From an uncultured Geobacteraceae bacterium (GTDB taxonomy: Bacteria; Desulfobacterota; Desulfuromonadia; Geobacterales; Pseudopelobacteraceae): a stretch of 64,000 nt of DNA. Below, piece by piece: positions 13,324 to 35,262 of the stretch. Location of the stretch: NCBI GenBank assembly GCA_903845365.1, contig CAIMXI010000222.1, positions 1 through 64,000 of the forward strand, read 5' to 3'. Both the position numbers and the translations under genes were made by a program. How positions within the stretch are numbered: position 1 is the first letter of the stretch; the number at the start of each line of letters is the position of its first letter. The notes below the pieces were generated by a model. The model saw nothing but the letters and a program-made list of their open reading frames with translations, was not told the DNA's origin and did not search any database.

Positions 13324-14589
13324 ATGAAAATGATCCTGATCTACCCATGTTGGCCCAAACTCGATCGGCAGACGGAATTTCACCTGCCTCCCCACGGTCC
13401 GGTCGTCTTTGCCGCCTGTGTTCCACCTGAGGTGGAGCTGACATTCATCGATGAGAACCTCGAGCTGATCGACTTTGACGCACCCTGCGATCTGATAGGT
13501 ATTTCTGTCATGCTCACCTGTCAGCTCCCGCGTGCTTTTGAAATCTCGGCTCGGTTCCGTTCACGCGGAGTCTCTGTCATCTTTGGCGGCATCGCCGCCA
13601 TGCTGCATGCGGAGGAGGTCGCACTGCATGCCGATGCGCTCTTTCTTGGCGAAGCAGAGGGGCGCTTTGCCGCCGTACTGGACGACTTCAGGGCCGGCTC
13701 CATGAAAAAGGTCTACAACTACATGGACAACCCTCCGGAGGCCGCTCTTATCGGCACCGCCCGCCGGGAAGTTCTCAATCGGGAACTCTACAATTATCGT
13801 GGCGTACAGATGCTCGACCTCGTACACGCCTCGCGCGGTTGCAAGTTTGATTGTTTCCCCTGCTGCACCGGTTTCCTTGGCGGAAAAAGTTTCCGGCCAC
13901 GCCCGATCAGCAATGTGATTGAAGAGATGGAGGCGATTCGAAACAACCGCATGTTCATCGTAGACAACTCTCTGGCTCAGGATCGTCAATGGCTGATAGA
14001 CCTCTTCACCGCCATGGAACCGCTGAAGAAGAAATGGGTCTCTCATCCGATCATGGATGACGATAAAATTCTGAAACTGGCTGCTGATGCCGGAGCCTGG
14101 TACGTTTACCAGGCGGTATTCGACACCTCCGAGGTGATTCGTAACCGTATCAAACGCTTGAAAGATCATGGCATCGGGGTGGAAGGGACGATTCTGCTCG
14201 GAACCGACGAGCAGAACGAAGACGGTATCAAGCGACTGGTTGACTTCCTTTTGGAGGTCGAACTGGATGTGGCGGAATTTACCATTTTGACACCGTTTCC
14301 TCACTCTCCCTGCCGCACACAACTGGAGAAAGAAGGGAGGCTCCTGAGCAGCGACTGGAAAAACTACTCTGCAGACAAGGTGCTCTTTCAGCCGAAGCAG
14401 ATGACCCCTGAAAAACTGCAGGAGATGTACTACTATGCGTGGGACACCTTTTATGCCGACGGCGGGCACCAGCTAAAGATGGGAGATCTCTTTAAAAAAG
14501 TGATTCAGCGGGAGATGGCGGATGATACCTACTACCGCTATAATCCACGCCGGAAACGCTCTTTCACCAAAGGGCCGAACAAGGCATGA
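13324..14589 (+). CDS. B12-binding-type radical SAM protein 1
   Basis: This 421-residue protein has an N-terminal Rossmann-like cobalamin-binding-type domain (about 1-130, with VIFGGIAA and the FLGEAEGRF variant of the GEGE motif) and a radical SAM core starting at about 165. The 4Fe-4S cysteines are Cys173, Cys177 and Cys180 (CKFDCFPC). No D-x-H-x-x-G cobalamin-tail motif is visible, as in many class B enzymes, so cobalamin binding is inferred from architecture. Such enzymes catalyse methylations, ring formations or other C-H chemistry. As the first gene of the operon it may act on the ACP-bound chain; the substrate is unknown. Its 3' end overlaps the next gene by 4 bases. Confidence 0.87.
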   Translation: MKMILIYPCWPKLDRQTEFHLPPHGPVVFAACVPPEVELTFIDENLELIDFDAPCDLIGISVMLTCQLPRAFEISARFRSRGVSVIFGGIAAMLHAEEVALHADALFLGEAEGRFAAVLDDFRAGSMKKVYNYMDNPPEAALIGTARREVLNRELYNYRGVQMLDLVHASRGCKFDCFPCCTGFLGGKSFRPRPISNVIEEMEAIRNNRMFIVDNSLAQDRQWLIDLFTAMEPLKKKWVSHPIMDDDKILKLAADAGAWYVYQAVFDTSEVIRNRIKRLKDHGIGVEGTILLGTDEQNEDGIKRLVDFLLEVELDVAEFTILTPFPHSPCRTQLEKEGRLLSSDWKNYSADKVLFQPKQMTPEKLQEMYYYAWDTFYADGGHQLKMGDLFKKVIQREMADDTYYRYNPRRKRSFTKGPNKA

Positions 14590-15938
14590 AGCGAATTTTC
14601 CTGGCATCCTCTAACATAACAACGGAGCCGTATCCGGTCTATCCGCTCGGGCTCGCTGTCATTGCAGCCGCACTGACAGAAGCCGGACACATGGTGGAAC
14701 AGTTCGATTTCCTGGCTTCCGGAGAGTCAGAAGAGCTTCTGGCAGAACGGATAACCGCCTTTGTACCGGATTACGTCTGCGTCTCCATCAGGAATCTTGA
14801 CAACTGCGACTCTCTGACGGTCACGGCCTATCCTGAGATTGCCAGGCGCCTCATTGAAGTGATCCGAAAACAATCCAGAGCACCGGTCATTATCGGGGGA
14901 CCGGCGTTTTCAATCATGCCGGAAGAACTTCTGGCCTTCACCGGCGCAGACTACGGCATCGTTGGTGAGGGGGAGCGTCTGCTCTGCGAGTTGATACGTG
15001 ATCTTCGGGAAGGAAAAACGCCGCCCCGCATACTGCGCGGCACGGGAGTTCTCCCAGGCAATGAGATGATATCGCCGCTTTATTCGGAAAACCTGATAGA
15101 GTTTTACCGGGAAAAAAGCGGCATGATCAATCTGCAAACAAAGCGCGGCTGCCCTCACGCCTGCATCTACTGCAGTTACCCATCACTTGAGGGAGCGCAT
15201 TATCGCTGCCGTGATTCGAAATCGGTCGTAGACGACCTTGAACGGCTCAAGGCCGTCCACGGGGTTGAGCGTGTTTTTTTTACCGACTCGGTTTTCAACG
15301 ACAGCGATGGGCACTATCTCGAAGTCGTCGAGGAACTCATCCGGCGCGATCTTTCCCTCCGCTGGTGCTGCTATATGCGCCCGGAAGGTGTGGGAAGACG
15401 CGAGATAGCACTGATGAAACGGGCGGGCCTCTACGCCGTCGAACTCGGTACCGATGCTGCGAGTGACACGACACTGCTCGCGCTCGGCAAGGGCTTCACC
15501 TTTGCCGATGCTCTGGAGGCGAACCGTGCCTGCGTCGCAGAGCGGCTTCCGTGCGCTCATTTCGTTATGTTCGGCGGGCCTGGCGAAACAATGGCGACGG
15601 TCACGGAGGGGCTCAGAAACCTGGATCAGCTTGAGCATACTGTAGTCTTTGCCTTCTCCGGCATACGGATACTCCCCGGGACACCCCTTCTGGCTCGCGC
15701 CGTCAGAGATCGGGTTCTGGCTGAAGGCGCCTCGCTGCGCGATTCCGTCTATTATATGTCACCCGACGTCGATGCAGAGGCAATGAATGACATTATTCTT
15801 ACGGCCTTCAGGGGCAGGCGTGACCGGATTTTTCCACCATCCGAAGGTCAGGAGAGGCTTTCCATCATGTACCGATTTGGCTACCGTGGACTGCTCTGGG
15901 ATTCGTTAATCAGGTTTCCCAAGGAATTACCGTGCTGA
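14586..15938 (+). CDS. B12-binding-type radical SAM protein 2
   Basis: This 450-residue protein has a cobalamin-binding-type N-terminal domain (about 1-140: PLGLAVIAAAL, VIIGGPAFS, YGIVGEGE) followed by a radical SAM core whose cluster ligands are Cys189, Cys193 and Cys196 (CPHACIYC). The core also shows FFTDSVFND and FVMFGGPGET, typical SAM- and substrate-region motifs of Elp3/MiaB-like radical SAM proteins. The start ATG overlaps the upstream stop. It differs clearly in sequence from the first and third radical SAM genes, so the three are not recent duplicates and probably do different steps. Confidence 0.87.
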   Translation: MKRIFLASSNITTEPYPVYPLGLAVIAAALTEAGHMVEQFDFLASGESEELLAERITAFVPDYVCVSIRNLDNCDSLTVTAYPEIARRLIEVIRKQSRAPVIIGGPAFSIMPEELLAFTGADYGIVGEGERLLCELIRDLREGKTPPRILRGTGVLPGNEMISPLYSENLIEFYREKSGMINLQTKRGCPHACIYCSYPSLEGAHYRCRDSKSVVDDLERLKAVHGVERVFFTDSVFNDSDGHYLEVVEELIRRDLSLRWCCYMRPEGVGRREIALMKRAGLYAVELGTDAASDTTLLALGKGFTFADALEANRACVAERLPCAHFVMFGGPGETMATVTEGLRNLDQLEHTVVFAFSGIRILPGTPLLARAVRDRVLAEGASLRDSVYYMSPDVDAEAMNDIILTAFRGRRDRIFPPSEGQERLSIMYRFGYRGLLWDSLIRFPKELPC

Positions 15939-17383
15939 GCGATAAAAAAATCCTTCTGGTTCATCCACTCGGCTACAGGGCGGATGCGGCCGGACGCGAT
16001 ATCTCCCGCATCGCCAACATCATGCCCCCTCTGGGGCTGGCAAGTATCGCGGCCTACCTGGAACAGCGCGGCAGATCGGTTGATATCATCGACTGCTATG
16101 CGCGCCCTGATTCAGACCGGGCGATTCGCGATTTCCTGCTCGCTGAAAAACCGGCTTTCATCGGATTAAGCTGCACCACCTCCAGCTTTCTTGACGGCAT
16201 CAGGATAGCGGAGATGGCGCGCACAGTTGTTCCCAGCATCCGCACAGTTTTCGGCGGTCCTCACGTTTCGGCACTCAAAGAGCAGCTCTTTGCCCGCTTC
16301 CCTGCCATGGATTTTGCCGTCATCGGCGAAGGGGAAGAGACCATGGAAGAGCTTGTCCGCGCTGGCCGGGACGACCCGGAGTCGGTCAGGGGAATTATCT
16401 GCCGCTGCGGGGGAGAGGCGCACTTCACCGGATACAGGGATAAAGGAGTCGTGCTGGACGATCTCCCCTTTCCTGCCTACGAGAAACTGGCTGGGTTTCC
16501 ATCATCCTACATGCTGCCGATCTTCAATTACCCGAAGACACCGAATACGAGCTGCATCTCAAGCCGCGGCTGCCCATATACCTGCAGTTACTGCGACCGC
16601 TCGGTCTTTCGCCGCAGTTTCCGATATAATTCGGCCGCCTACCTTTACGAACATCTTCGCTACCTGAAGGAGCGTTTCGGCATACGCCACATCAACTTCT
16701 ACGACGATCAATTCACCTTCAACCGGCAGCGGGTTGAAGAGTTCACCGGCATGATGATTGACCGTCCGCTTGACATGACTTTCAACTGTGCGGTTCGGGC
16801 GGAGCATATCGATCGAGAACTGCTGACCCGGATGCGGAGCGCAGGCTGCTGGATGATGAGCCTCGGCGTAGAGACGGGCGATGCGGAACTCCTTGCACAA
16901 CATCGCCAGAACGCCGATCTGAATCATCTAGCCGAAAAAATCAGGCTGATAAAAGATACCGGAATCAGAACCAAGGGGCTTCTCATGATGGGGCTGCCGG
17001 GTGAGACCGAGGCAAGTATCCGCCGGAGCATGAAGTACGTCTTCTCTCTGCCGATAGACGATTTCAACCTGGCCAAATTCACCCCGTTTCCCGGCTCTCC
17101 GATTTACGAAAATATCCACGAACTGGGTGAGTTTGAAGAGGATTGGGAAAAGATGGACTGCATGAACTTTCTATTCGTCGCCAGGGGAATGACACGGGAG
17201 CGGCTGGAGCAGCTTTTCAACGAGTTTTACTGCAGCCATTTCAAGCGTTCCAAAGTACTCTGGGGCTATGTCACCATGCTGTGGCGCTCACCGGACAGTT
17301 GGCTCCGCTTTCTCAAAAATCTTGCCGGTTTTGTCAGGTTCACCCGTGGTACATCGCGCCATATTGGGAAAAACACCGGATGA
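15932..17383 (+). CDS. B12-binding-type radical SAM protein 3
   Basis: This 483-residue protein starts at GTG 15932, overlapping the upstream gene by 7 bases. The B12-binding-type domain (about 1-145) contains PPLGLASIAAYL, VFGGPHVS and VIGEGEETMEEL. The radical SAM core has Cys214, Cys218 and Cys221 (CPYTCSYC), a NFYDDQFTFN strand, LGVETGD and LLMMGLPGET. This arrangement is the BchE/HpnP-like class B layout, whose members include methylases and cyclases. A C-terminal extension of about 70 residues is rich in aromatic and basic residues. The end overlaps the acyltransferase start by 4 bases. Confidence 0.88.
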   Translation: MLSDKKILLVHPLGYRADAAGRDISRIANIMPPLGLASIAAYLEQRGRSVDIIDCYARPDSDRAIRDFLLAEKPAFIGLSCTTSSFLDGIRIAEMARTVVPSIRTVFGGPHVSALKEQLFARFPAMDFAVIGEGEETMEELVRAGRDDPESVRGIICRCGGEAHFTGYRDKGVVLDDLPFPAYEKLAGFPSSYMLPIFNYPKTPNTSCISSRGCPYTCSYCDRSVFRRSFRYNSAAYLYEHLRYLKERFGIRHINFYDDQFTFNRQRVEEFTGMMIDRPLDMTFNCAVRAEHIDRELLTRMRSAGCWMMSLGVETGDAELLAQHRQNADLNHLAEKIRLIKDTGIRTKGLLMMGLPGETEASIRRSMKYVFSLPIDDFNLAKFTPFPGSPIYENIHELGEFEEDWEKMDCMNFLFVARGMTRERLEQLFNEFYCSHFKRSKVLWGYVTMLWRSPDSWLRFLKNLAGFVRFTRGTSRHIGKNTG

Positions 17384-18297
17384 GCGCAACAAGCAAACCA
17401 TGGTCCAGCCGTAGTATCGGCTCGACCTGGCAGCACAATGTTTTTTACACCCTGATCCGTTGTGGCGGCAAGCAGGCTGCGTACACCCTGCTGCTCTTTG
17501 TGGTGCTCTATTATACCCTGTTTCGTCCTGAAGTAAGGAATCGTTCCAGGCCTTATCTCAAAAGGCGCTTTCCGGGACGCAGTTCGCTGCCGCTGCTCCG
17601 GGACAGTTATCTTCTCACTCTCGGCATCGGCAGGACTCTTGTTGACCGGGCCATACTCGGAATTTCAGGCCCAGACAACATCAACGTCAGCCTTGAGGGT
17701 ACATCTATGCTGGCAAAGCTGTTGGCAGAGGGGCGCGGACTGATCCTGATTACCGCTCACGTAGGCTGCTGGCAGCTTGCCATGTCGAGCCTTACAGCCC
17801 TTGACACTCAGGTTAACCTCCTTATCCATCGAGAAGAGGGGGATCTGGATCGACACTTTTTTGAACATGGCAGTGATAAACCGCCGTACCGTATTATTGA
17901 TCCGGCAGGCTATCTAGGCGGAACGCTGGAGATGCTTCAGGTCTTGAAAAACAGAGAACTCCTCTGTATTATGGGCGACCGCAGCATGGGTTCGGAAAGG
18001 AGCACCGTCAGCGTCGCCTTTCTTGGCGGGTCGGTAAAGCTGCCGATCAGCCCGTATAAAATCGCCTCGGCGACCGGCGCTCCGGTGGCGGTCATTTTCC
18101 CTCATAGAAGCAAGTCCGGTGTCTATGAGCTGCAGGTGGCAAAAATCATGCGGATACCGGGGAATCTCGGCAGATCAGAACGAGCCTATCTCCCCTTCGC
18201 CCGGGAATTTATCACCGTTCTGGAAGCTTTTGTAGCTGAAAACCCGTACCAGTTTTTCAATTTTTATGACATGTGGGCAAAGCAGGGTGAGGGATGA
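17380..18297 (+). CDS. lysophospholipid/LpxL-type acyltransferase
   Basis: I take the ATG at 17380, which overlaps the upstream TGA; the open frame extends upstream from 17143 but only inside the radical SAM gene. The 305-residue product has one N-terminal hydrophobic helix (about 34-48) and an LpxL/HtrB-like acyltransferase domain with AHVGCWQLA at about 126 and a later MGDRS motif. The family's H-x4-D/E dyad reads His127 followed by Gln132, so the usual acidic partner is missing or shifted. The family moves acyl chains from ACP to lipid or sugar acceptors at the inner membrane; the ACP gene follows directly. Confidence 0.82.
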   Translation: MSATSKPWSSRSIGSTWQHNVFYTLIRCGGKQAAYTLLLFVVLYYTLFRPEVRNRSRPYLKRRFPGRSSLPLLRDSYLLTLGIGRTLVDRAILGISGPDNINVSLEGTSMLAKLLAEGRGLILITAHVGCWQLAMSSLTALDTQVNLLIHREEGDLDRHFFEHGSDKPPYRIIDPAGYLGGTLEMLQVLKNRELLCIMGDRSMGSERSTVSVAFLGGSVKLPISPYKIASATGAPVAVIFPHRSKSGVYELQVAKIMRIPGNLGRSERAYLPFAREFITVLEAFVAENPYQFFNFYDMWAKQGEG

Positions 18298-18328
18298 GGG
18301 AAAATGACGTTTTCAAGGAGAATGTGAG

Positions 18329-18586
18329 ATGAATACAAAAGAAAAACTGAAAAAGATTCTCATCGAGGATCTGAACCTGGAAGAGCTGACCCCGGAGGAT
18401 ATCGATGATAACGCGCCGCTCTTCGGCGAAGGGCTCGGCCTCGATTCACTTGATGCGGTAGAGCTGGTCGTAATTATCCAGAAGCATTTCGGTATCGAGA
18501 TCAAGAATATGGAGGAGGGGCGCGAGGCATTCCGGTCGGTTGAAGCCCTGGCCGCATATGTTGATCAGCGCCTGGCGACCACGTGA
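18329..18586 (+). CDS. acyl carrier protein 1
   Basis: This 85-residue acidic protein has the carrier-protein four-helix pattern and the phosphopantetheine site LGLDSLDAVEL, with Ser40 as the attachment residue. AAGGAG lies 8 bases before the start. It presumably carries the chain made by the ketosynthase pair encoded immediately downstream. The KS start codon GTG overlaps its stop. It differs clearly from the second ACP at 25173, so the two may serve separate steps or enzymes. Confidence 0.93.
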   Translation: MNTKEKLKKILIEDLNLEELTPEDIDDNAPLFGEGLGLDSLDAVELVVIIQKHFGIEIKNMEEGREAFRSVEALAAYVDQRLATT

Positions 18587-19764
18587 CCTCCGCTCCGGTT
18601 GCCATCACCGGAATGGGATGTATCTGTGCGGCCGGCATCAATCTGAACGACACCATGGCGGCGCTTTTCAGCGGGTGCCGCGCCCCGGCTCCACCGGTCA
18701 GCTTTACCTGCAGCCACCTGATCAACTATCCTGTCTTCGAGGTTCAGGGTTTTACTCCCCCTCCCGATCTGCTCCGCACCTGCTCCCTCGGCTTGCACGC
18801 CGCACGGGAGGCGCTGGCTGATGCCGGGCTTGACCGGGAATTTCTGGACAGCATCAGGGTCGGCGTCTCTGTTGGAACCACTGTCGGTTCTGCTATGAGT
18901 AACGAGACTTTCTGCAGAGAGTTACGCTTCGGACAGCAACCAGACATGACAATGCTGGAAAGAATCCAGAGGAGTAACCCGGCTGCGGTCATCGCCCGTG
19001 AATTCGGGTTCAACGGCCCCTGTCAAACCATTGTAAATGCCTGCTCATCAGGAACTGACGCGGTCGGTCTGGCGGCATCATGGATCCGCTCCGGAATCTG
19101 TGATGTTGCCCTCGCAGGTGGAGCAGACGAGTTGGGCCGAATCACCTACATCGGCTTCATCGCCCTGCAGATAACCGATGACTCCCCTTGCAAGCCGTTC
19201 GATCTCAACCGGAAAGGGTTGAATCTCGGAGAGGCTGGGGCGATGATGGTTCTCGAATCTGAACAGGTCCGAGCAATGCGCAACAAAAGAGCCCGGTCGT
19301 TTCTGCTCGGATATGGCTCTGCCTGCGACGCCTATCACCTGACCGCTCCAAAACCGGACGGAGCCGGCCTGAAAAGCGCCATCGCCGAGGCTCTTGCCTG
19401 CAGTAATACCGATCCGGGAGCGGTTGCCTTTGTTAATGCCCACGGCACCGGAACTCCGGATAATGACCGGGTCGAAACACAGGTACTGGCCGAACTGCTT
19501 CCCGGAGTCCCCTTTCTCTCCACCAAGGGGTACACGGGTCACACGCTTGGAGCCGCCGGCGCGATCGAGGCGGTCTTTACCGCTGCCTGTCTCGAACGGG
19601 GAGAAATTCCGGCCAGCATCGGTTTCTCAACAGCGGATCCAGCCCTGAGGGGAAACCCGCTTACCCGGAATACCACGTTCAGCGGCACGATCGCCCTTTC
19701 CGAATCGCTCGCTTTCGGCGGCAACAACTCTGTGGTCATACTCGGCAAGGGGGGAGTGACATAA
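18583..19764 (+). CDS. beta-ketoacyl-ACP synthase, FabF/KS-alpha type
   Basis: This 393-residue thiolase-fold enzyme retains the full condensing triad: Cys154 (VNACSSGTDA), His287 (NAHGTGTPDND) and His320 (KGYTGHTLGAAG, with Lys315). It should elongate an ACP-bound chain by decarboxylative Claisen condensation with malonyl-ACP. It starts at GTG 18583, overlapping the ACP stop, and ends in TAATG with the next ketosynthase-like gene. Pairing with an active-site-less partner is the arrangement of type II polyketide KS/chain-length-factor pairs rather than of primary fatty acid synthesis. Confidence 0.92.
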   Translation: MTSAPVAITGMGCICAAGINLNDTMAALFSGCRAPAPPVSFTCSHLINYPVFEVQGFTPPPDLLRTCSLGLHAAREALADAGLDREFLDSIRVGVSVGTTVGSAMSNETFCRELRFGQQPDMTMLERIQRSNPAAVIAREFGFNGPCQTIVNACSSGTDAVGLAASWIRSGICDVALAGGADELGRITYIGFIALQITDDSPCKPFDLNRKGLNLGEAGAMMVLESEQVRAMRNKRARSFLLGYGSACDAYHLTAPKPDGAGLKSAIAEALACSNTDPGAVAFVNAHGTGTPDNDRVETQVLAELLPGVPFLSTKGYTGHTLGAAGAIEAVFTAACLERGEIPASIGFSTADPALRGNPLTRNTTFSGTIALSESLAFGGNNSVVILGKGGVT

Positions 19765-20858
19765 TGCAGATTGCCGTTCAAGGAATAGGCGTTGTCGGCT
19801 GTTTCGGAGCCGGAGTGGCGAAGATGCGACAGGCACTGCTGACAGGAGCCGTCTCCCCTGCTGCTTTCGATCTTCCGGGCTGTGGCACTCCGCTCGCCAT
19901 CTCCGCCTTTCGTGCAGACACCTCATCTCTTGCTGATTTCGTGCCGTTGAAGGCTCTGCGTAGGATCGACAATTTTTCCCGACTGGGACTCCTGGGAGCG
20001 TATCTTGCGCTGCAAGATGCCGGAGTTCCTGCCGCAGAAAAACAGGAACGGCTTGGAGTCGTCATCGCCTCCGGATATGGTGCCACCGGTAGTACCTTTG
20101 CCTTTCTCGACTCATTCATAAACGATGGCGATATCTGTGCGTCCCCAACCTACTTCGCCAACTCCGTCCATAATTCGGCGGCCGCCTACATCTCAATAAT
20201 GCTCGGGGCAACAGGTCCTAGCAGCACGGTCAGCCAGTTTCACCATTCTGTCCCCTCGGCTCTCCAGACCGCATGCCTCTGGCTGGCTGAGGGACGTGTC
20301 GATCGCGTCCTCTTTGGTGCGATTGAAGAGTTGTCCGAGCTGATCGGCTACGCTTGGCATCGCCAGCGCGGCAGAGCGGATATACCGGAAATGACTCCGC
20401 TCCTTACCGGGGCAGAGTCCGCTATTCCTGGCGAAGGAGCGGCCTTTCTGCTCCTGACGCGCAGGGAAGAGTCTCAGGGGGGGTATTGCCTGCTTGATCG
20501 GGTGATTACGGGAAGACACCTGAAGCCGGGGTTCCTCCCCTCCCCTCTAGATCTTTTGGTGCTGGGAGCCGATGGACGTATTGAAAAAGGGGGCGACTAT
20601 GCGAAGCTTGCGAAAAAAGCTACCGTCGCCTGCTTCACCTCTCTGTATGGCAGTATGCCGGGCAGCCCCGCTTTCGATATAGCCATTGCCGCCTTGATGC
20701 TCAAAGAGGGGAAAACATTCGATTCCCCAGGCAGTGCGGTGTGCGACTTTCCGGCAACCGTGGCAACTGGTGGCGAGAGCCTCAAAGGGTGCTGCGTCTC
20801 ATGCCTCTCCCTGAGCGATGATGACGGGTTCGGCCTGATAAACCTCTCAAAAGGATGA
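19764..20858 (+). CDS. ketosynthase-like chain-length-factor analogue (active-site Cys replaced)
   Basis: This 364-residue protein follows the ketosynthase N-terminal fold (GIGVVGCFG..., SRLGLLGAYLALQDAG, GVVIASGYGATGS). The nucleophile region reads STVSQFHHS, which puts Phe159 where the active partner has Cys154. The HGTGT and K-x-x-x-GH motifs are also lost, and the C-terminal half is shortened. It cannot condense by itself. As in KS-beta/CLF proteins it most likely forms a heterodimer with the adjacent KS and sets chain length, but it is more degenerate than classical CLFs. Its start overlaps the KS stop. Confidence 0.82.
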   Translation: MQIAVQGIGVVGCFGAGVAKMRQALLTGAVSPAAFDLPGCGTPLAISAFRADTSSLADFVPLKALRRIDNFSRLGLLGAYLALQDAGVPAAEKQERLGVVIASGYGATGSTFAFLDSFINDGDICASPTYFANSVHNSAAAYISIMLGATGPSSTVSQFHHSVPSALQTACLWLAEGRVDRVLFGAIEELSELIGYAWHRQRGRADIPEMTPLLTGAESAIPGEGAAFLLLTRREESQGGYCLLDRVITGRHLKPGFLPSPLDLLVLGADGRIEKGGDYAKLAKKATVACFTSLYGSMPGSPAFDIAIAALMLKEGKTFDSPGSAVCDFPATVATGGESLKGCCVSCLSLSDDDGFGLINLSKG

Positions 20859-21454
20859 GACGGCATGCGAATAACGCATTCCAGGTGCTTCTGCTGTTAC
20901 TGCTCTCGGGCTGCTTCTTGTTTCCATACCGGAGCGGAGCGGTAGAGTTTGCTGCTCCTCTTGAGGATCGGGCTCCAGACCGCTTTGGCATATCTCTTGA
21001 GGTTGCCAATGTCTACGATCCGGGACATGACATCGGCTTTGCCCTTGTAACAGGGTTCGGGCTGTTCGATTACGGCAAAATATGGCATCAGGATCGCCCA
21101 AAAGAGCTCTGTTTCAAGGTGGAGGGGGCGCTTGGCTCAACATTCAGGCCTGAAGCACGTACGGTTGCCTCGCTCGGGATGCTGGTACTCTATTATTTTG
21201 ACCGATTGGCCACCCCGCAGATTCGTCCCTATTTCGAGGCCGGCATCGGAGCAATCTATACCGATTTCAGGGTCGAAGGTCAGGGACTGCGGATAAATTT
21301 CAATCCGCAACTGGGAATCGGCGCAGAACTGGTTCAAAAGGATGACCCCGGCAGTTTTGTGACTTTCAGGATGCACCATCTGTCAAACGGGAATCTCTTT
21401 CACGATAATCGGGGAGTTAACTCCCTGGTTCTGCAGGTTGGCAGGTTTTTTTGA
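20855..21454 (+). CDS. PagL-like outer-membrane acyl hydrolase (acyloxyacyl hydrolase family)
   Basis: This 199-residue protein has an N-terminal hydrophobic signal and then alternating strands of an eight-stranded barrel ending in a C-terminal Phe (VGRFF). The closing region carries the PagL H-x-S-N motif (HHLSNGN). In PagL a Glu completes the Ser-His-Glu triad 14 residues after the His; here that position is Asn (RGVNS). PagL removes the 3-O acyl chain of lipid A. In this operon it may trim or modify a lipid in the outer membrane, or be a non-catalytic barrel. It overlaps the upstream gene by 4 bases. Confidence 0.75.
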   Translation: MRRHANNAFQVLLLLLLSGCFLFPYRSGAVEFAAPLEDRAPDRFGISLEVANVYDPGHDIGFALVTGFGLFDYGKIWHQDRPKELCFKVEGALGSTFRPEARTVASLGMLVLYYFDRLATPQIRPYFEAGIGAIYTDFRVEGQGLRINFNPQLGIGAELVQKDDPGSFVTFRMHHLSNGNLFHDNRGVNSLVLQVGRFF

Positions 21455-21497
21455 GGAGAGCTGTCACGGTGTGACCAAATAGATTCTGGGAGCAGCA

Positions 21498-21920
21498 ATG
21501 CTGAAAACGGAAGTTCCACAAGATAAAGAGCTCTTTGGCGACCAGCGGGAGGTCTGCTACGCGGTCGATGAAAACGGACGCTATGTCCTTGCTGAATCTT
21601 CCGGATGGGAGCCGGCCAATGTTGCAAATAGTCAGGCATGGGACGTAATCCGGTCTGAAGTGGAAGCGGTCCTTGCGAAGATTCGTGCGGGTGAACTGAG
21701 CCCACTTGCCTATTATATGGCGCGAAATCAGATGGATGCGAAGCTTCTCGCCGGTTATGCCGGGCTTTTCTGCTGGCAGGTGCGGCGACATTTGAAGCCC
21801 GGACCGTTTCGCTCGCTGAAGCCGTCACAGGTGGCCCGCTACGCAACTATCTTCAAAACCACGCCGGAAGAGATCACCCGCATCCCGGACGTTTTTGAAA
21901 TCAGCGACGTCCAGAGCTAA
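21498..21920 (+). CDS. small protein with a helix-turn-helix-like C-terminal half
   Basis: I do not recognise this 140-residue protein by name. The first half is acidic with a short strand pattern (EVCYAVDENGRYVLAESSGWEP) and then a helical segment. From about residue 75 the pattern resembles Cro/C1-type HTH domains: LSPLAYYMARNQMDAKLLAGYAGL, then WQVRRHLKP, then QVARYATIFKTTPEEI. A role as a cluster regulator or an ACP-interacting accessory is possible but unproven. It lies between the PagL-like and BtrH-like genes with 43- and 35-base gaps, and a GGGAG site precedes the ATG. Confidence 0.65.
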   Translation: MLKTEVPQDKELFGDQREVCYAVDENGRYVLAESSGWEPANVANSQAWDVIRSEVEAVLAKIRAGELSPLAYYMARNQMDAKLLAGYAGLFCWQVRRHLKPGPFRSLKPSQVARYATIFKTTPEEITRIPDVFEISDVQS

Positions 21921-21955
21921 CAATCAAACCATCAGTCTTAACAAAGGATCCTTAC

Positions 21956-22963
21956 GTGAATCCGGCTTTCCCCCACCGCCAGACGGCCCATTGCGAAAGC
22001 GGTGTTATCGCAAACCTTCTCACCTACCACGGGCTTCCACTGTCCGAGGCGATGGCTTTCGGCATCGGTGGCGGACTTTTTTTCGGCTACCTGCCGTTCA
22101 TCCGGATCAACGGCCTGCCGCTCACGACCTTCCGCACCACGCCTGGCGGCATTTTCAACCGGGTAACCAAACGACTCGGTATAGGAGTAACCAGCAGCAC
22201 GTTTAAAGATCAGAGTCGTGCGATGGCAGAACTGGATCTCCTTCTCCGGATGGGCATCCCGGTTGGGATGCAGACAGGTGTCTACTGGCTCCCCTACTTC
22301 CCACCGGCATTGCGCTTCCATTTCAACGCCCATAATCTGATAGCGTACGGTAAAGAGGGAGACAACTACCTGATCAGCGATCCGGTGATAGGTGAACCGG
22401 TTGTCTGTGCCGCAGCAGACCTGGTAAGAGCCCGTTTTGCCCAGGGTGCACTCGCTCCAAAGGGGAAGATGTACTGCATCACTGCCGTTCCGAAGAATAT
22501 TGACCTGGCGCCGGCGATCAGAGAGGGAATCCGCGAAGTCTGCCGGGTTATGGTATCAGTGCCATTTCCACTGATCGGAACGTGGGGCATACGGTATCTC
22601 GCAAACCAGGTTGAGCGCTGGCCAGCCAGGCTTGGTGAAAAACGGGCGATTCTCTATCTCGGCAATCTGATACGGATGCAGGAGGAGATCGGTACCGGTG
22701 GTGCGGGATTCCGCTTTATTTTTGCCGCATTTCTTCAGGAATCGGCTGCTGTTCTGGGAAACAGCAACTTCCTTGAAATGTCACAGCGAATGACCGGGAT
22801 TGGCGATGTCTGGCGCGAATTCGCTCTGGCCGGAGCCAGACACTGCAAGGGGCGCGCCGAACAGAGCGGGGATTTCACTGATCTGGCTCGCATACTGCGG
22901 CGCTGCGCCGAATTGGAAAACGGTTTTTTCCGCGAGCTTTCCTCGCTGGTACGGAAGCCGTAA
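21956..22963 (+). CDS. BtrH-like ACP-acyltransferase (BtrH N-terminal domain)
   Basis: This 335-residue protein starts at GTG 21956 and matches the BtrH N-terminal cysteine-protease-like domain. The visible catalytic set is Cys13 (AHCESG), His126 (FNAHNLIAYG) and Asp142 (YLISDPV). In butirosin synthesis BtrH transfers an acyl group from an ACP to an amine of the aminoglycoside. By analogy this enzyme could release the finished chain from one of the two ACPs onto an amine or hydroxyl acceptor. The C-terminal half (about 170-335) is helical and matches nothing I can name. Its end touches the ABC ATPase start. Confidence 0.8.
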   Translation: MNPAFPHRQTAHCESGVIANLLTYHGLPLSEAMAFGIGGGLFFGYLPFIRINGLPLTTFRTTPGGIFNRVTKRLGIGVTSSTFKDQSRAMAELDLLLRMGIPVGMQTGVYWLPYFPPALRFHFNAHNLIAYGKEGDNYLISDPVIGEPVVCAAADLVRARFAQGALAPKGKMYCITAVPKNIDLAPAIREGIREVCRVMVSVPFPLIGTWGIRYLANQVERWPARLGEKRAILYLGNLIRMQEEIGTGGAGFRFIFAAFLQESAAVLGNSNFLEMSQRMTGIGDVWREFALAGARHCKGRAEQSGDFTDLARILRRCAELENGFFRELSSLVRKP

Positions 22964-25126: not shown

Positions 25127-25172
25127 CCCGGCAGGTGCCGTAGAGCATTATATACCGCTGAAGGAGAATATT

Positions 25173-25436
25173 GTGGAAGATAATTTAGAGCAGGAACTGA
25201 TAGAAATGTTGATTGAAACATGCAGGGTTGCCGGCCCCATTCCGACCGACCTCTCTCTGGACGCGCCGTTGATCGGCCCCGACTCTCCGTTCGGCCTCGA
25301 CTCTCTCGACGCAGTGGAGGTAGTTGTGGCTGTGCAGAGAACATTCAATGTCAGGATTGAAAGTACGGAGTCGAGCCGCCAGGTACTCCAGTCGCTCCGA
25401 ACCCTGGCCGACTACATCCGCCGCAACCGTGTATGA
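25173..25436 (+). CDS. acyl carrier protein 2
   Basis: This 87-residue carrier protein starts at GTG 25173 behind AAGGAG. Ser44 in FGLDSLDAVEVVV is the phosphopantetheine site. It is the last gene of the plus-strand arm and ends 8 bases from the opposing membrane-protein gene. A decayed sequence at 28290-28345 preserves a very similar SLF-x-LDSLDAV stretch, so a relative or duplicate of this gene once existed nearer the second arm. Confidence 0.92.
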   Translation: MEDNLEQELIEMLIETCRVAGPIPTDLSLDAPLIGPDSPFGLDSLDAVEVVVAVQRTFNVRIESTESSRQVLQSLRTLADYIRRNRV

Positions 25437-28018: not shown

Positions 28019-28348
28019 CGCCATTGTAGATTATCCGTCCATCTTCGGCAAGGGACAAGATACCTATCTCAGCTCAATATCTTCCAGTGCTATCCAAATG
28101 GTGACGAGGTCATCTTTACAATTTTCACTGATGGCAAAAGATGGGCCAATCAGTCCGAACTGAATGGCGGCACCGCCAAGAAAGCAGTTAGAGAGTATGC
28201 ATCGAACAGGTTCGGGCTCGCAAGCCAGTCGGCATCCAGGAGCACAGTCTTGTGGTACTCCAAGTCGGTGGTGAGACAGTGCTTCGTGTACTCCGACTCT
28301 CTGTTCGATCTAGATTCACTCGACGCGGTTGATGGAGTTGTGTTCTGA
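28019..28348 (+). pseudogene. decayed reading frame ending in an ACP signature
   Basis: A 110-codon stretch is open on the plus strand but has no ATG, GTG or TTG at its upstream end. Its last residues read SDSLFDLDSLDAVDGVVF before TGA, very close to the phosphopantetheine region of ACP2 (DSPFGLDSLDAVEVVV), and the DNA of this part is also similar. The rest (for example NIFQCYPNGDEVIF, KAVREYASNRFGL) I cannot assign. It is probably a remnant in which a carrier-protein end has been joined to another degraded sequence. Apart from this the 552 bases from 27829 to 28380 contain only the hairpin at 27858. Confidence 0.55.
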
Positions 28349-28380: not shown

Positions 28381-30081
28381 CTATCTAAAAACCATGTATT
28401 CACCTATAAAGAGATAGTCGAGCGGGGTCTTGGCAAAGCAGATGAGAGCATCTTCTGGAGAACAGACGATCGGCTCCTGGAGATTGAAACTAGTGTTGAT
28501 AAGAACTGCATGTCCGGTCAACGCCTCAAACGCCATGAGGAGCCGGTGAAGCTCTGGATTCAGCTCCGTCGAAACGACCTGAATCCTGGCTGTTCCATCC
28601 ACGTGGGTGATGCCGGGAAGTATCTCGCGGAATTCACTTTTAACTTTGGTAGTTAACAACATATAGCGGGTCAGTTCCGATAGCGGCTCTTGAAGCTCAA
28701 AATATTTCAGAGCGGCTTCTTTGGTAGTCACGGGGGCAAACGGCCTGAAATACTCCCGTTTTTTTACCTGCAAATTCAGATATTCACTGATTCCCGGTGA
28801 AAATGGACTGGCAAGGATCGACCTGTTACCGAGCGCTCGGGGACCACTTTCCATCCTGCCTTGAAACCAGCCAATTAATTTATTCTCGGCAAGAACTTTG
28901 GCTGCCTCGTCACAAGGCCTAGCGATATTGCGGTAGACCACGCCACTCCTTTTAAGAGACGCGATGATCTCTTCGTTACTGTATTCCGGTCCCAGAAATG
29001 GTGAGAAGCAACGAGCATCACTCGGGACTTCACCGCAACAGGCAAAGGCGGCATATAGTCCGGCTCCGGCAGCACCTCCGCTGTCCGAAGGGAACGGAGG
29101 TGCAAACACCTTTCTGTAGGCACCACTCTGCAGAATTTCTCTGTTGATGTCGCAGTTCAGGAAAAGCCCACCAGCCAGGCAGAGATTATTGTGACCGGAA
29201 GCGCTCTGAGCATGGCTAACAACATGCAGTATCGCCTCCTTAACCCGGTTCTGCATGCTGAAAGCAATATCGAAATGCCGCTGCACAAGAGGTTCGCCCC
29301 GCTCCCTTTTGGGGCCGAATTCCCGACCGAGCCCAGTTTCGCTGTAGTACCAGAGCCCAAGATATTTCTGGTTCGGTATGATAAACTGTCCGTCAGGCTT
29401 TAACTCAATTATCTGCTTAAATTGCTCACAGTAAATGTCCCTCCCGTATGCGGCCAGAGCCATAGTTTTTCCTTCCTGATACGTATCAAAGCCGAGGAAG
29501 CAGGTGAAGGTAGAGTAGAGGATGCCGAGAGAGTCCCATATTGGAGCTCTCCACTTCCGTTCAAAGATGTTGTTCTTCACTGAGTAGACAGAAGTCGAAC
29601 AGTCCTCGCCATGGCCGTCAGCAACGATTATATCTGTGTTTTCACGATTGAAGGGCGATATATAGTAGCTTGAAGCGGCGTGTGCCAAGTGATGATTGAC
29701 ATATATGACCCTTCCTCTAAATTCTCCCGGGTAAATCTTGTTGATAGCCTTTTTGAGCATCAGAGAAGAAATAATAGAGCGAAAATTTTTCGGCGGTCGG
29801 GAATGCTTTAGTATCTTGTAATAGATTATTGGAGCGATTATTACCTTGATGACTTCAACTGCTGCAGCTTTGTACGGATTCCAGTTGTAAGCGATAACAT
29901 CTACATCGGTCAACCGGATATTCCCATGTTTCAGCACATAGTTAATGGAATTGACAGGAAAGGAGCGGGTATGTTTCATCCGGTCAAACCGTTCCTCTTC
30001 AACATTTGCTACCATTTTCCCATTTACGATGAGACAGGCTGCAGAGTCATGGACAAAAGCCGATATGCCGAGAATCACCAT
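28381..30081 (-). CDS. carbamoyltransferase (NodU/CmcH family)
   Basis: This 566-residue protein is a complete NodU/CmcH-type O-carbamoyltransferase. The N-terminal Kae1-like domain has GISAFVHDSAACLI, VEEERF, the metal-binding NHHLAHAASSYY motif and an AADGHGED-type loop (IIVADGHGEDCS). The C-terminal YrdC-like part contains GWFQGRMESGPRALGNRSILASP and FAPVTTKEAA. The enzymes form carbamoyl-AMP from carbamoyl phosphate and ATP and transfer the carbamoyl group to a hydroxyl, for example on Nod factors, cephamycin or novobiocin sugars. It is the last gene of this arm, 7 bases after the KAS III-like gene, and points to a carbamoylated product. Confidence 0.93.
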   Translation of the reverse strand: MVILGISAFVHDSAACLIVNGKMVANVEEERFDRMKHTRSFPVNSINYVLKHGNIRLTDVDVIAYNWNPYKAAAVEVIKVIIAPIIYYKILKHSRPPKNFRSIISSLMLKKAINKIYPGEFRGRVIYVNHHLAHAASSYYISPFNRENTDIIVADGHGEDCSTSVYSVKNNIFERKWRAPIWDSLGILYSTFTCFLGFDTYQEGKTMALAAYGRDIYCEQFKQIIELKPDGQFIIPNQKYLGLWYYSETGLGREFGPKRERGEPLVQRHFDIAFSMQNRVKEAILHVVSHAQSASGHNNLCLAGGLFLNCDINREILQSGAYRKVFAPPFPSDSGGAAGAGLYAAFACCGEVPSDARCFSPFLGPEYSNEEIIASLKRSGVVYRNIARPCDEAAKVLAENKLIGWFQGRMESGPRALGNRSILASPFSPGISEYLNLQVKKREYFRPFAPVTTKEAALKYFELQEPLSELTRYMLLTTKVKSEFREILPGITHVDGTARIQVVSTELNPELHRLLMAFEALTGHAVLINTSFNLQEPIVCSPEDALICFAKTPLDYLFIGEYMVFR

Positions 30082-30088
30082 AGTCTAC

Positions 30089-31238: not shown

Positions 31239-32534
31239 CTACAGTTTTGCTCTGGCGTGGAATTGCTTCATAAGTCTTGCGTACTGCTGATAAAAGCGTT
31301 TTTCCCCGAGTCGGGTAGCGGTCACCGCATTAGTGAGCGTATAATAGTCAAGATCCCTGATGGTTATACGTTCGTGAAGTTCGCTGTAGAGTGCAGTTCC
31401 GGGCAGCGGCGTCAGTACTGTCAGTATGGGAAGCTCGATAGCCCGGCTGATAACGTACTCCTCCAGCACTTCAAATCGGGCATCGTCATAATCGGGCGAG
31501 ACGATGAAGTCGCCAACAATAGTGATCCCTAGTTCGTGCAGTATGGAGATCGCTTCGTTGTTGATGGCAACCTTGTTTTCCTTGTTGAAAAAGGTAAGGT
31601 CGTTGTCGGCAATTTCCTCAAAACCGATTACTACGGAGCGCAACCCCGCTTCCTGCCACTGCCGCATAAGTTCCGGATGCCTGACAACCGTGTCGGAGCG
31701 GACATCGGCGATGAAATTCGTCCTGATCCCCGCAGCAGCAATCGCCTCCACCAGCAGGCGGGCATGTCCGATATTTCCGAAAGTGTTGGCATCAACCAGG
31801 CGGATAACCGGGAGAGTGCCAAGCAGCCGGATGTCCCTGATAACCGCCTCGACCGAGTGGGTCAGATAGCGCCCCCCCGCCTGAGAGCTGATACAGCAGA
31901 AGGAGCATCTGAACGGACAGCCGAAAGCGGATGCCACCATACCGATCTGTGAACCTATTGATGAAAGGGTGTAACCGGCGCGGTAGGCGGCGACCAGATC
32001 GTAGCGGGGAGGGACTTGCTCAACTAGATCAGGTAACCCGAAATTTCGCGGCGTAAAGAGAAGCGCCTCCCCCGGTCTGGTCGTGGCTACACCGGGTATC
32101 CCCCCCGTCGTGGTGCCTGCCTCGATCGCCGCCGTCAGCTCGGCAAAGCTGGCCTTGCCGAGACCGATAATGACATAATCTATCTCCGGTCGATTAAAGA
32201 AGGACGGATCACTGCTCGCATGAATGCCCCCCACCACTACCACTGCGCCGCAACTCTCTTTTACCTCTCCCGCCAGTCGCAGGACGGTATTTGCTTCGCA
32301 GGTAACCGCCGTGAAACCGACCAACTGCGGCCTGAATACATCAAGAGTCGAGTGCAGGCTCTCCGGCTCTGCCTTCAGATCCAGAATGCGGACTTCATGA
32401 TCGGCGAGATTGCCTGCGAGCACTTCAAGTGCTAACGGCTCTCCGCGAAAGATCTGACGTATAGAATTGATACCGTAGCGCTCTTCCGGAATGCTCCGAC
32501 CGCAGTTAGGCGGATTGACAAGCAGAATTTTCAT
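31239..32534 (-). CDS. B12-binding-type radical SAM protein 4
   Basis: This 431-residue protein has the same layout as the three radical SAM proteins of the other arm. An N-terminal B12-binding-type domain (about 1-140; VVVVGGIHASSDP) uses IIGLGKASF in place of the usual GEGE. The radical SAM core has Cys206, Cys210 and Cys213 (CPFRCSFC), a LVDANTFGN strand, and VVIGFEEI. The role is unknown; in this arm it could methylate or rearrange the acyl or sugar part. The four copies are too divergent to be recent duplicates. Confidence 0.87.
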   Translation of the reverse strand: MKILLVNPPNCGRSIPEERYGINSIRQIFRGEPLALEVLAGNLADHEVRILDLKAEPESLHSTLDVFRPQLVGFTAVTCEANTVLRLAGEVKESCGAVVVVGGIHASSDPSFFNRPEIDYVIIGLGKASFAELTAAIEAGTTTGGIPGVATTRPGEALLFTPRNFGLPDLVEQVPPRYDLVAAYRAGYTLSSIGSQIGMVASAFGCPFRCSFCCISSQAGGRYLTHSVEAVIRDIRLLGTLPVIRLVDANTFGNIGHARLLVEAIAAAGIRTNFIADVRSDTVVRHPELMRQWQEAGLRSVVIGFEEIADNDLTFFNKENKVAINNEAISILHELGITIVGDFIVSPDYDDARFEVLEEYVISRAIELPILTVLTPLPGTALYSELHERITIRDLDYYTLTNAVTATRLGEKRFYQQYARLMKQFHARAKL

Positions 32535-32584: not shown

Positions 32585-33793
32585 TCACGCTCTATTACGA
32601 AACCGCTTCACCATAAAATAGGTAAGAAGCGCCCCCGCCACGCCGAGCAGCGGCCCGAGCAGAAGTGCCCCGATCAGCCATTCCCGCAGCCGGAGATGGA
32701 TCTCCATCAAAAGAGTCTGTCGATTGAATTCGTACCAAAACGCACCATACAAAAAGTAATGACCAAGTTCAATGCAGAGAAACGGCACAAAGGGAGCAAC
32801 ACAGATATTGCTGGCAGCGACCGCAACGAGTTTGTTGAGATGAAGCCGGAGACACGCGTAGATAATGACCGCAATTCCAAACGGAATAATCGGCAGCGAC
32901 CCGATGCAGATGCCGACCCAGACCGCTGCGGCGAGCTCCCCTGGCGCTGAGTGCTCCCGAGTCAGCGCTTTAATAAAATGTATCGGCTGAAAAATACTGG
33001 GCAAGCGCTCCGCATCAATTTTCCCCTGAAACAGTCGGCGATGCGGCCAGGGGAGCAGCGATCGAGTCACCAGAAATGTGTGCAGGCAGCTTAGGCGGAA
33101 ATTATCCTTTAATTTGTGAAAATGCGAAATCCGCTCGTCGCCCGGCGGATAGTAAACCGACACCGGAGTTGACAGCAGCGGCAATCCTGCCCAGCTTCCC
33201 CTTACTAGCACCTCGATCTCAAAGGTATAGCGCCGGGAAAGGAATCTGTCGCTCACCAGAAATTCAACCGGGTAGAGCCGGTAACCACTCTGGGTGTCCG
33301 GCAGCGTCTTGCCGCACTCTAGCCGCACCCAAAAGTTGGAAAAATCACGGCCGAAAAGGCTCGAACGCGGTACGTTCCGGGTTTCCATAATGCGAGCACC
33401 GATGACAATACAGGGCCAGGAGGAGCCGGCCTTTTCCAGCAGCAGCCCCGCATCGGCAGGATCATGCTGGCCGTCCGCATCGATCGTTATGATCGCCTGA
33501 TAGCCAGAACCGAGAGCCAGGCGCGCCGCAGCAAGAATGGCTCCCCCCTTGCCCACATTTACCGGCAGCCGGTGACGCTCTATCTGAAGATCGATAACGC
33601 TGTCGAGAGAGCCGTCACTGCTGCCGTCATCGACAACCAGGACGGGAAACCCTTGAGCCAGTGATGCTTCAACCACCGCTCGCAACGTATTGACGTGGTT
33701 GTATACCGGTATTACCACCAGCGCTTTTGGGTCTGCAGCCGCCTCTGCCACCCCCTGGGCAGGAAGCGGTATGGCAGCGTCTGTCTTGTTCAC
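32585..33793 (-). CDS. glycosyltransferase family 2 - DUF2062 fusion
   Basis: This 402-residue protein joins a GT2 domain (about 24-235) to a membrane-embedded DUF2062 domain (about 265-400). The GT2 part shows VVIPVYNHVNTL, VVDDGSSDGS, a TIDADGQHDP metal-binding motif, and TQSGYRLYP, resembling dolichyl-phosphate mannose synthase-like enzymes that load a sugar onto a polyprenyl phosphate. DUF2062 has three or four membrane helices. It is not a processive chitin-synthase type. The start overlaps the end of the deacetylase gene by 4 bases. It likely activates or transfers the sugar part of the product at the membrane. Confidence 0.88.
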   Translation of the reverse strand: MNKTDAAIPLPAQGVAEAAADPKALVVIPVYNHVNTLRAVVEASLAQGFPVLVVDDGSSDGSLDSVIDLQIERHRLPVNVGKGGAILAAARLALGSGYQAIITIDADGQHDPADAGLLLEKAGSSWPCIVIGARIMETRNVPRSSLFGRDFSNFWVRLECGKTLPDTQSGYRLYPVEFLVSDRFLSRRYTFEIEVLVRGSWAGLPLLSTPVSVYYPPGDERISHFHKLKDNFRLSCLHTFLVTRSLLPWPHRRLFQGKIDAERLPSIFQPIHFIKALTREHSAPGELAAAVWVGICIGSLPIIPFGIAVIIYACLRLHLNKLVAVAASNICVAPFVPFLCIELGHYFLYGAFWYEFNRQTLLMEIHLRLREWLIGALLLGPLLGVAGALLTYFMVKRFRNRA

Positions 33794-35262
33794 TTCCCCT
33801 CCGATACCACTGCAGCGACCGGTCTGCGGGCAACCACCTCAAGCAGCATACCACCTGACACGCATGACTTGAGAAGATGGCTGGAAATTGCAATCCGCTC
33901 AAACCCGGCAGCCGTCAGCATCGCTTCAATTTCCCGATGGCTGTGGGCTTTCAGCCATAGCCCCTGCCGCATGGCGTTGCCAATCTGGGTAATAAACCGG
34001 AACAGTGAGCTGCGGGCAGTAATGAAATACAGGGTGCCTCCCGGTTCGATATGGCGCGCGACACGGGTAAAAAATGCGGGGAGGTCGGAAAGATATTCCA
34101 GTGCCGAAAAGGCACAAATTACAGTAAAAGTGCCGTTAATGTCCATAGTTTCTACGTTCTCATTCACCGTTCTGATGTTGGCAATCCCCGCGTCTCCCGC
34201 TTTCTTTTCGAGCAGCTTTAACATATTTCCGGATATATCTGCGGCTATTACTTCAGTGCAGTTACGGGCAATTTCCAACGTGAATATGCCGGTTCCGGCA
34301 CCTAATTCAAGCACACGGCTGACTCCAGCGAATATAGCAGGAATTTGCGCAGAAAACAGTCGGAGTTCCGTGGATCGTGAAAGCGACACCTTGGTATTAA
34401 ATTGCTCCTGATCATATTTTTCAGCCAAACCGTTGTAGAATAGTGCTACTGGATCAGTTTTTAAATCATCGGAGATCGTTGTTTGCATTACTTCTCTACC
34501 AATGAGATGACTGAGTGGAACAATCTCAAGCCCTTTATCTTTCAGTCCACTTATAAGGGCAGAGAACTCTTGTAGCAGGTATTTTGTGTCGTTATCTCCC
34601 GGAGCAACGTCGTGCATCAAAATAATATCGCCAGGAGTTACTTTTGCAAGTAATCTTCCTGCAAGATTCTTTACTCGTCTGTTACCAAAGTCTCGAGCAC
34701 GGCAGCTAAAATTAACGCAGAACATACCATTTTCAATTAAAGCCCTCCAGAGGTCTGGATTTGTTATTCCAACCGGAGGGCGAAAGGCAAGAGGCTTGAT
34801 ACCAAACTTCAGCAAGGTATTTTGTGCTGTTGCTATCTCGCTATGTAGTATGCCGGGGCTCTTTAACATAAGAATCGGCGAGTGGTTGTAAGTGTGGTTT
34901 CCTATCGTGTGGCCACCGGTTATGATGGCTTTAATTATTTCCGGATATTGCTCGGCACGCATACCAGTTACGAAAAATGTTGCCGTTATACCTTGTTGTG
35001 CCAGGAGTTCGAGTAGCAACGGGGTCACCTTGGGATCGGGACCGTCGTCGAAAGTTATTGAAACTCTTTTAACGGTTCTATTTCCACAACTGATAATCGG
35101 AAGAAAAAAACTGATGCGAGGAAAGAACGGAGCGGCACAACAGGTAAGGACAAATATAAGGAGAGGTATTGGTGCAAAATTTATATTTATAAACAGCAGT
35201 AATATAAAAAATTGATAAGCTCCCAGTGCCACTAAATGGGCTGGGGTCAATAGACAGGGCAT
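33790..35262 (-). CDS. polysaccharide deacetylase - SAM methyltransferase fusion
   Basis: The 490-residue protein has two N-terminal membrane segments (about 10-55), a NodB-homology deacetylase (about 65-255) and a class I methyltransferase (about 270-475). The deacetylase keeps SITFDDGPDP (catalytic and metal Asp), the H-x3-H pair GNHTYNHS, RPPVG and LMHDVAPGD. The methyltransferase has VLELGAGTGIFTLEIA, an acidic end of strand 2 (VIAADIS) and a later CAFSALEYL. It could N-deacetylate a sugar and methylate the same product. The fusion is unusual and suggests consecutive steps. It is the first gene of this arm. Confidence 0.9.
   Translation of the reverse strand: MPCLLTPAHLVALGAYQFFILLLFININFAPIPLLIFVLTCCAAPFFPRISFFLPIISCGNRTVKRVSITFDDGPDPKVTPLLLELLAQQGITATFFVTGMRAEQYPEIIKAIITGGHTIGNHTYNHSPILMLKSPGILHSEIATAQNTLLKFGIKPLAFRPPVGITNPDLWRALIENGMFCVNFSCRARDFGNRRVKNLAGRLLAKVTPGDIILMHDVAPGDNDTKYLLQEFSALISGLKDKGLEIVPLSHLIGREVMQTTISDDLKTDPVALFYNGLAEKYDQEQFNTKVSLSRSTELRLFSAQIPAIFAGVSRVLELGAGTGIFTLEIARNCTEVIAADISGNMLKLLEKKAGDAGIANIRTVNENVETMDINGTFTVICAFSALEYLSDLPAFFTRVARHIEPGGTLYFITARSSLFRFITQIGNAMRQGLWLKAHSHREIEAMLTAAGFERIAISSHLLKSCVSGGMLLEVVARRPVAAVVSEGK

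Follow-up and report, generated by a model that had tools for sequence, protein, structure and literature searches.

What is made by two convergent operons that combine four radical S-adenosylmethionine (SAM) proteins with genes for acyl-chain synthesis and export? The question is raised by a stretch of 64,000 nucleotides (here the window) at the start of contig CAIMXI010000222.1 of an uncultured Geobacteraceae bacterium, and gene content suggests that the two arms are probably one half of a flexirubin-like pathway in an anaerobic form rich in B12 and radical SAM enzymes, of which the other half lies on a second contig (C35) of the same genome. Beyond this, we propose that one of the radical SAM proteins, P0017 (rSAM4), would oxidise the cyclohexanedione formed by DarB to a resorcinol in place of the flavodoxin-like DarA, that P0001 (P1) and P0002 (P2) would serve the same pigment pathway as enzymes specific to anaerobes, and that the clusters of Desulfobacterota regarded as ladderane-like would be of flexirubin type, a combined reading to which we assign a probability of roughly 0.35. 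Genomes and loci are given by our own G and L numbers where they have to be told apart, the window genome being G000.

A radical SAM gene in the place of darA

The minus-strand gene that the original prediction had described as KAS III-like encodes a ketosynthase-cyclase of the StlD/DarB type (NF005293, 566 bits against a cut-off of 450). It aligns end to end with the StlD structure PDB 5gk0 (429 bits), and its catalytic C125, H298 and N333 match the Cys, His and Asn of StlD. Two plus-strand genes could be renamed likewise, the BtrH-like protein being DarH (NF053550, 469.3 versus 300 bits) and the HTH-like one being better described as a member of the DarG family (NF053536, 146.4 versus 70 bits). 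All three proteins are known from dialkylresorcinol (DAR) and flexirubin clusters, in which DarB is the DAR-cyclase and DarA the DAR-aromatase (PMC3949708), and cyclohexanediones are intermediates of the DAR pathway (PMC4414361). DarA resembles flavodoxin-type proteins weakly. The partner of DarB in the window, however, is not an aromatase of the DarA/StlC type but rSAM4, whose gene ends 13 bp upstream of darB.

This position was compared across 79 loci, classified by whichever gene lies immediately upstream of darB. Of these, 49 were supplied by searching named genomes with DarB, and 30 came from 395 genomes of the phylum of the window, of which 32 pass the DarB cut-off; the other two carry rSAM4 (G183) and DarA (G139), and a partial DarB in G390 stands with DarA. 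The upstream gene was darA in 45 loci, rSAM4 in 33, neither in one and both in none, in a set that includes the same genome twice as L023 and G031, L024 and G028, L028 and G068, L084 and the window, and probably L036 and L101. The sole locus with neither gene (G142) is at a contig end and holds a short DarA-like remnant (20.6 bits). Full-length DarA was not found genome-wide in the rSAM4 genomes, G000 included, although short flavodoxin-like relatives of 65-80 bits occur in G288, G332, G352, G391 and G465, and one also in the darA-type G447. Conversely, no rSAM4 ortholog was found in the darA genomes (best non-orthologous match 243 bits versus >600 for orthologs) or in the 79 darB-negative genomes (best 294 bits versus 600 or more). 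The identities of DarB and rSAM4 are correlated (r = 0.87 over 30 loci), and both types occur within a single family, f104 (G447 and G429 with darA, G465 with rSAM4). As far as sequences can tell, the presence of darA or rSAM4 but never both is a well-supported genetic rule, and its natural reading is that rSAM4 replaces the DarA aromatase, with a chemistry that we infer.

The two arms and the second block on contig C35

Domains of the window proteins were assigned with Pfam and NCBIfam. The plus-strand arm is a run of 13 coupled genes (13324-25436, gaps of -7 to +46 bp) and the minus-strand arm, which converges on it within the window, a run of five (35262-28381, gaps of -4 to +50 bp); the anatomy of the original prediction was reproduced for 18 of its 18 genes, including the tight coupling of both runs. 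The genes are as follows.

13324-14589, plus: P0001 (P1), radical SAM protein with a weak B12-binding domain, below Pfam gathering scores, CxxxCxxC
14586-15938, plus: P0002 (P2), B12-binding radical SAM protein, TIGR04072 rSAM_ladder_B12 (678.6 bits, cut-off 360)
15932-17383, plus: P0003 (P3), B12-binding radical SAM protein, BchE/HpnJ-like, Pfam B12-binding and Radical_SAM over cut-off
17380-18297, plus: LpxL-type (Lip_A_acyltrans) acyltransferase, PF03279
18329-18586, plus: acyl carrier protein (ACP) 1, PRK09184 family, NF006617 (78.7 bits, cut-off 70), DSL serine
18583-19764, plus: ketosynthase (KS), FabF/PRK09185-like, Cys154-His287-His320 intact
19764-20858, plus: inactive KS partner resembling a chain-length factor (CLF), catalytic Cys and both His lost
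20855-21454, plus: PagL-like outer-membrane beta-barrel, PF09411 (61.6 bits), kept in the clusters of relatives
21498-21920, plus: DarG family protein
21956-22963, plus: DarH, BtrH-related acyltransferase, PF14399 and PF16169
22963-23742, plus: ABC-2 exporter ATPase, PF00005
23759-25126, plus: ABC-2 exporter permease, PF12698
25173-25436, plus: ACP2, DSL serine, position conserved in relatives
28381-30081, minus: NodU/CmcH-type carbamoyltransferase, accessory, PF16861 and PF02543
30089-31225, minus: DarB, StlD/DarB ketosynthase-cyclase
31239-32534, minus: rSAM4 (P0017), B12-binding radical SAM protein in the darA position
32585-33793, minus: glycosyltransferase (GT2)-DUF2062 protein, from the domain search
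33790-35262, minus: polysaccharide deacetylase-methyltransferase fusion, PF01522 and PF13649

The ketosynthase keeps its Cys-His-His triad and the partner has none of the three residues, so that the label of inactive partner was correct, and both ACPs retain the DSL serine. The CxxxCxxC motif is present in each of the four radical SAM proteins and is kept by those of their orthologs that were inspected. Four such enzymes had been announced as B12-type, and the number holds; as to B12, P0001 remains below the Pfam gathering scores (24.5 versus 32.1 bits for B12-binding, 19.1 versus 29.5 for radical SAM), and B12 binding by the four is expected from family membership. P0003 falls under every NCBIfam equivalog cut-off. 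The start of the LpxL-type acyltransferase was set at 17380 from an ATGA overlap with P0003, and its motif reads HX4Q in place of HX4D/E; the Q is kept in the full clusters of rSAM4 type, and an E is found in Flavobacteriia, in the darA-type G447, in G183 and in G465.

That the two arms belong together, as first proposed, is borne out by relatives, in which they are linked: six other loci of Geobacter type have them together, as do further genomes of Desulfobacterota, and the arrangement is therefore far beyond chance. In G031, G017 and G068 the plus arm continues into a second block of KS/CLF genes, ApeI-/ApeP-like dehydratases, an MMPL protein, a LolA2-like protein, PlsC, a third ACP and further ketosynthases, in some of them also with a phytoene-desaturase-like flavoenzyme and a thioesterase (TE). 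A search of the window genome with the MMPL protein located this block on contig C35 (L018:3891-15830), where the MMPL protein shares 87% identity with the copy inside the cluster of G031. Dehydratases (DH), MMPL, LolA and further ketosynthases are likewise contiguous with the plus arm in G397, G414 and G190, which belong to other families of the phylum and have both arms and the second block in one run (nearly so in G294 and G288), with rSAM4-DarB beside ACP2-ABC-DarH-DarG-PagL-CLF-KS-ACP1-LpxL-GT2-P3-P2-P1-CLF2-KS2-TE-DH-MMPL-LolA2-DH-PlsC-ACP3-KS3-CrtD-KS4-FabG. This united cluster of the relatives has about 27 genes; the GT2-DUF2062 gene stands between LpxL and P3 in several of them, and in G415 the first part, up to P1, is in the stretch covered. 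The window genome has undergone a local split, after which P1 follows cbiF-cbiG. A contig end as its cause is unlikely, since past P1 the window goes on for 13 kb, into cbiG/cbiF, and C35 extends on both sides of the block.

These genes bear directly on the product that had first been suggested, a radically modified and carbamoylated lipid or lipoglycan with no relation to aryl polyenes. The lack of a dehydratase and an MMPL exporter had been held to argue against the aryl-polyene pathway, an argument that falls with the dehydratases, MMPL, LolA and further ketosynthases on C35 of the same genome, and a non-polyene pathway deduced from missing polyene genes was rejected. What survives of the proposal is a pathway that builds an acyl or polyketide chain on ACP with KS/CLF, tailors it by radical SAM enzymes and exports it. 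NodU, GT2, deacetylase, PagL and LpxL-type genes are indeed present and speak for the proposal, but polysaccharide deacetylase, acyltransferase, LolA, glycosyltransferase and exporter are standard in published flexirubin clusters (PMC3992019) and do not indicate a lipoglycan specifically. Carbamoylation is left as an accessory idea, as most relatives of the cluster lack NodU and, outside the window, it stands beside DarB in only two of seven other Geobacter-type loci (L026 and L029). We regard the carbamoylated lipid or lipoglycan as very improbable.

Just downstream of NodU, 50 nt on the plus strand (28293-28342) match the part of ACP2 that codes for its phosphopantetheine core (25279-25328) with 80% identity, and this stretch looks like an ACP relic because an intact ACP2 faces NodU at the matching spot in L026 and L029.

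Flexirubin clusters and the step after DarB

Flexirubins are aryl polyene-dialkylresorcinol esters. In Flavobacteriia (Maribacter, Aequorivita, Arenibacter and others) the loci have, in one run, ammonia-lyase (TAL), FabG, KS4, ACP3, LpxL-type acyltransferase, DarA, DarB, dehydratases, DarG, DarH, ABC-2 genes, thioesterase, KS2, ACP1, KS and, in most of them, CLF; flexirubin clusters are made up of this set of genes, and the cluster of the relatives has most genes in common with it. Shared by the window genome with the clusters of Flavobacteriia and Chitinophaga are KS/CLF, ACPs, dehydratases, thioesterase, LpxL-type acyltransferase, DarB, DarG, and DarH with ABC-2, together with LolA2 and MMPL on the second contig, so that the polyene KS/CLF, dehydratases, LolA and MMPL are found when the window and L018 are taken together. 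The differences are rSAM4 in the darA position, the extra P1-P3, CrtD-like flavoenzymes and PagL, and the added NodU. Two marks of flexirubin clusters were not found in G000, namely darA beside darB and an ammonia-lyase with a CoA ligase for an aryl starter. A further relative is the dar cluster of Azoarcus BH72 for arcuflavin, a xanthomonadin-dialkylresorcinol hybrid, which shares DAR-cyclase, ACP, ketosynthase, BtrH-like protein and ABC transporter, but has the DarA aromatase and, among the genes covered in the source, no radical SAM gene (PMC3949708). Celluxanthenes were considered as an anaerobic aryl polyene precedent and set aside as different, since they are made by a type I polyketide synthase and the text on them mentions neither radical SAM nor DarB. 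A plasmid search for neighbours of DarB gave no useful dar clusters.

From the gene identities, catalytic residues, conserved cluster and pairing rules, the following pathway can be proposed. Acyl chains would be built by KS/CLF and the ACPs with the ketosynthases, dehydratases and thioesterase of C35, and DarB would join a beta-ketoacyl and an alpha,beta-unsaturated chain and cyclise them to a 2,5-dialkylcyclohexane-1,3-dione, like StlD/DarB. In place of the aromatase DarA, rSAM4 would act next on the ring, most likely by oxidation to a resorcinol, after which DarH could move an ACP-bound acyl chain onto a ring hydroxyl. Tailoring would fall to P1-P3, the methyltransferase, GT2 and NodU, and export to the ABC-2, MMPL and LolA-like proteins. 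The product would thus be a polyene or acyl chain made by KS/CLF, joined to a ring of the dialkylresorcinol type and exported to the outer membrane.

An AlphaFold model of rSAM4 (predicted local distance difference test, pLDDT, 73.6) matches AprD4, TsrM, MgmA, CysS, TokK and OxsB, and at the level of a predicted structure confirms the B12-radical-SAM fold. A parallel for such a replacement is BchE, a B12 radical SAM enzyme that stands in for an oxygen-dependent cyclase. Oxidation of the ring to resorcinol by rSAM4, suggested by its position and distribution, is to us a tentative assignment that falls somewhat short of an even chance, and C-methylation is its main alternative. In the latter case rSAM4 would be a cobalamin-dependent C-methylase or another enzyme tailoring ring or chain, and the ring would stay a cyclohexanedione unless the cluster's CrtD-like flavoenzyme oxidised it. 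Methylases make up the majority of the B12 radical SAM enzymes characterised so far, TsrM ranks third among the fold matches of rSAM4, the NCBIfam model closest to rSAM4 is the hopanoid C-3 methylase HpnR (though far below the cut-off, 170 versus 650 bits), and the rSAM4-type clusters G397, G414 and G190, as well as L018, contain CrtD-like genes. A methylase would leave unexplained, however, why, in the rSAM4 genomes searched, darA is missing precisely where rSAM4 occupies the same position, and a CrtD-like match also occurs in the darA-type cluster G447, so that CrtD does not track the loss of darA. We consider the methylase or tailoring role a serious possibility, with odds of perhaps one in three.

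Several observations weigh against oxidation by rSAM4 and against the flexirubin-type assignment as a whole. The nearest folds include both the non-methylating AprD4 and the methylase TsrM and give no choice between oxidation and methylation, and the ring might instead be dehydrogenated by the CrtD-like flavoenzyme that several rSAM4-type clusters contain. DarB scores under the stricter resorcinol_DarB cut-off (NF053539, 460 versus 550 bits), and DarG under that of flexirubin_DarG (142 versus 170). No more than one or two changes on the DarB tree are required to account for the rSAM4 type; the pairing rule therefore reflects one old replacement kept across many families, and many independent swaps were rejected. 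Since darA is also carried by probable anaerobes (the digester Bacteroidales L045 and several Desulfobacterota), the exchange cannot be put down to the absence of oxygen alone, and rSAM4 as simply the oxygen-free version of DarA was likewise rejected. Finally, genome-wide searches of the window genome, G028 and G031 found no PF00221 (ammonia-lyase, TAL) protein and no ligase of the FlxY group (best about 200 bits versus 375-467 in carriers), whereas the clusters of G017 and G068 contain TAL and a FlxY-like ligase (466 versus 520 bits in G017). With neither lyase nor ligase in its genome, the window organism probably uses a starter unit other than coumaroyl.

A flavobacterial flexirubin locus, L046, has a FAD monooxygenase/halogenase-like gene beside TAL (L046:1415-2653) that is unmatched in the anaerobic clusters, possibly an oxygen-dependent counterpart of a radical SAM step.

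P0001, P0002 and the clusters discussed as ladderane pathways

Two of the remaining radical SAM genes track darB. Orthologs of P0001 were found in 33 of 37 darB-positive and three of 29 darB-negative genomes of the phylum (Fisher p = 5e-11) and those of P0002 (>560 bits) in 21 of 37 and none of 43 (p = 1e-9), p-values that overstate independence as the genomes counted are related. An ortholog of P0001 is also present in the digester Bacteroidales noted above (L045 = G503) and in none of ten Flavobacteriia genomes; for P0002 the aerobic side was checked within 21-kb flavobacterial loci only. As both occur with either darA or rSAM4, they are not a substitute for DarA, and by this distribution they appear as marks of the anaerobic version of the pathway.

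The cluster type itself is not new, having been seen by Rattray et al. (2009). In the passages covered, that work describes clusters in Kuenenia and Desulfotalea with radical SAM genes, a ligase, phytoene-desaturase-like genes and inactive divergent FabF paralogs, all shared with the type studied here, mentions similar ones in Geobacter and Pelobacter, and discusses them as pathways for ladderanes or polyunsaturated fatty acids (PMC2649909). A cluster making ladderane-like or polyunsaturated lipids, as proposed for anammox bacteria and Desulfotalea, would accord with these sightings and with P0002 being a TIGR04072 rSAM_ladder_B12 protein. The same source reports from Desulfotalea C31 polyunsaturated hydrocarbons and not ladderanes, and its passages covered do not describe the dar character (DarB, DarG, DarH) of the clusters. 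P0002 orthologs, for their part, occur only in the darB-positive genomes of the phylum sample, and DarB, DarG, DarH and the exporters fit the gene set of flexirubins and not fatty acid synthesis. Ladderanes are not known from outside anammox bacteria. Altogether a ladderane-type product seems unlikely.

Within the literature covered, which left out subscription papers, none was found that names the cluster type dar or flexirubin-type or reports the exchange of darA and rSAM4, and none joining aryl polyene, radical SAM and Geobacter; for radical SAM with dialkylresorcinol, the titles and abstracts found were on cyanobacterial alkylating enzymes. The flexirubin-like assignment would link the flexirubin and dialkylresorcinol pigments of aerobes with the radical-SAM lipid clusters that have stood unexplained in Geobacter-type anaerobes. 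It offers rSAM4 as a concrete candidate for the enzyme that follows DarB, and P1 as a core radical SAM gene whose occurrence goes with the anaerobic version. Should it be true, relatives of Geobacter make pigment-like lipids of the outer membrane, and the "ladderane" radical SAM family gains a pathway context that is testable without anammox cultures.

Three neighbouring features may be added. On the same strand as the plus arm and 95 bp upstream of P0001 are the cobalamin biosynthesis genes cbiF and cbiG (11392-13228), and the relocation has placed three radical SAM genes behind these B12 genes. The two ABC transporter genes of G031 are separated by an insertion that encodes a CrtD-like flavoenzyme and an unknown protein of 271 aa (L006:8397-10726). 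Outside the cluster, the minus strand of the window carries a NiFe-hydrogenase set of cytochrome b, large and small subunits (42164-45743).

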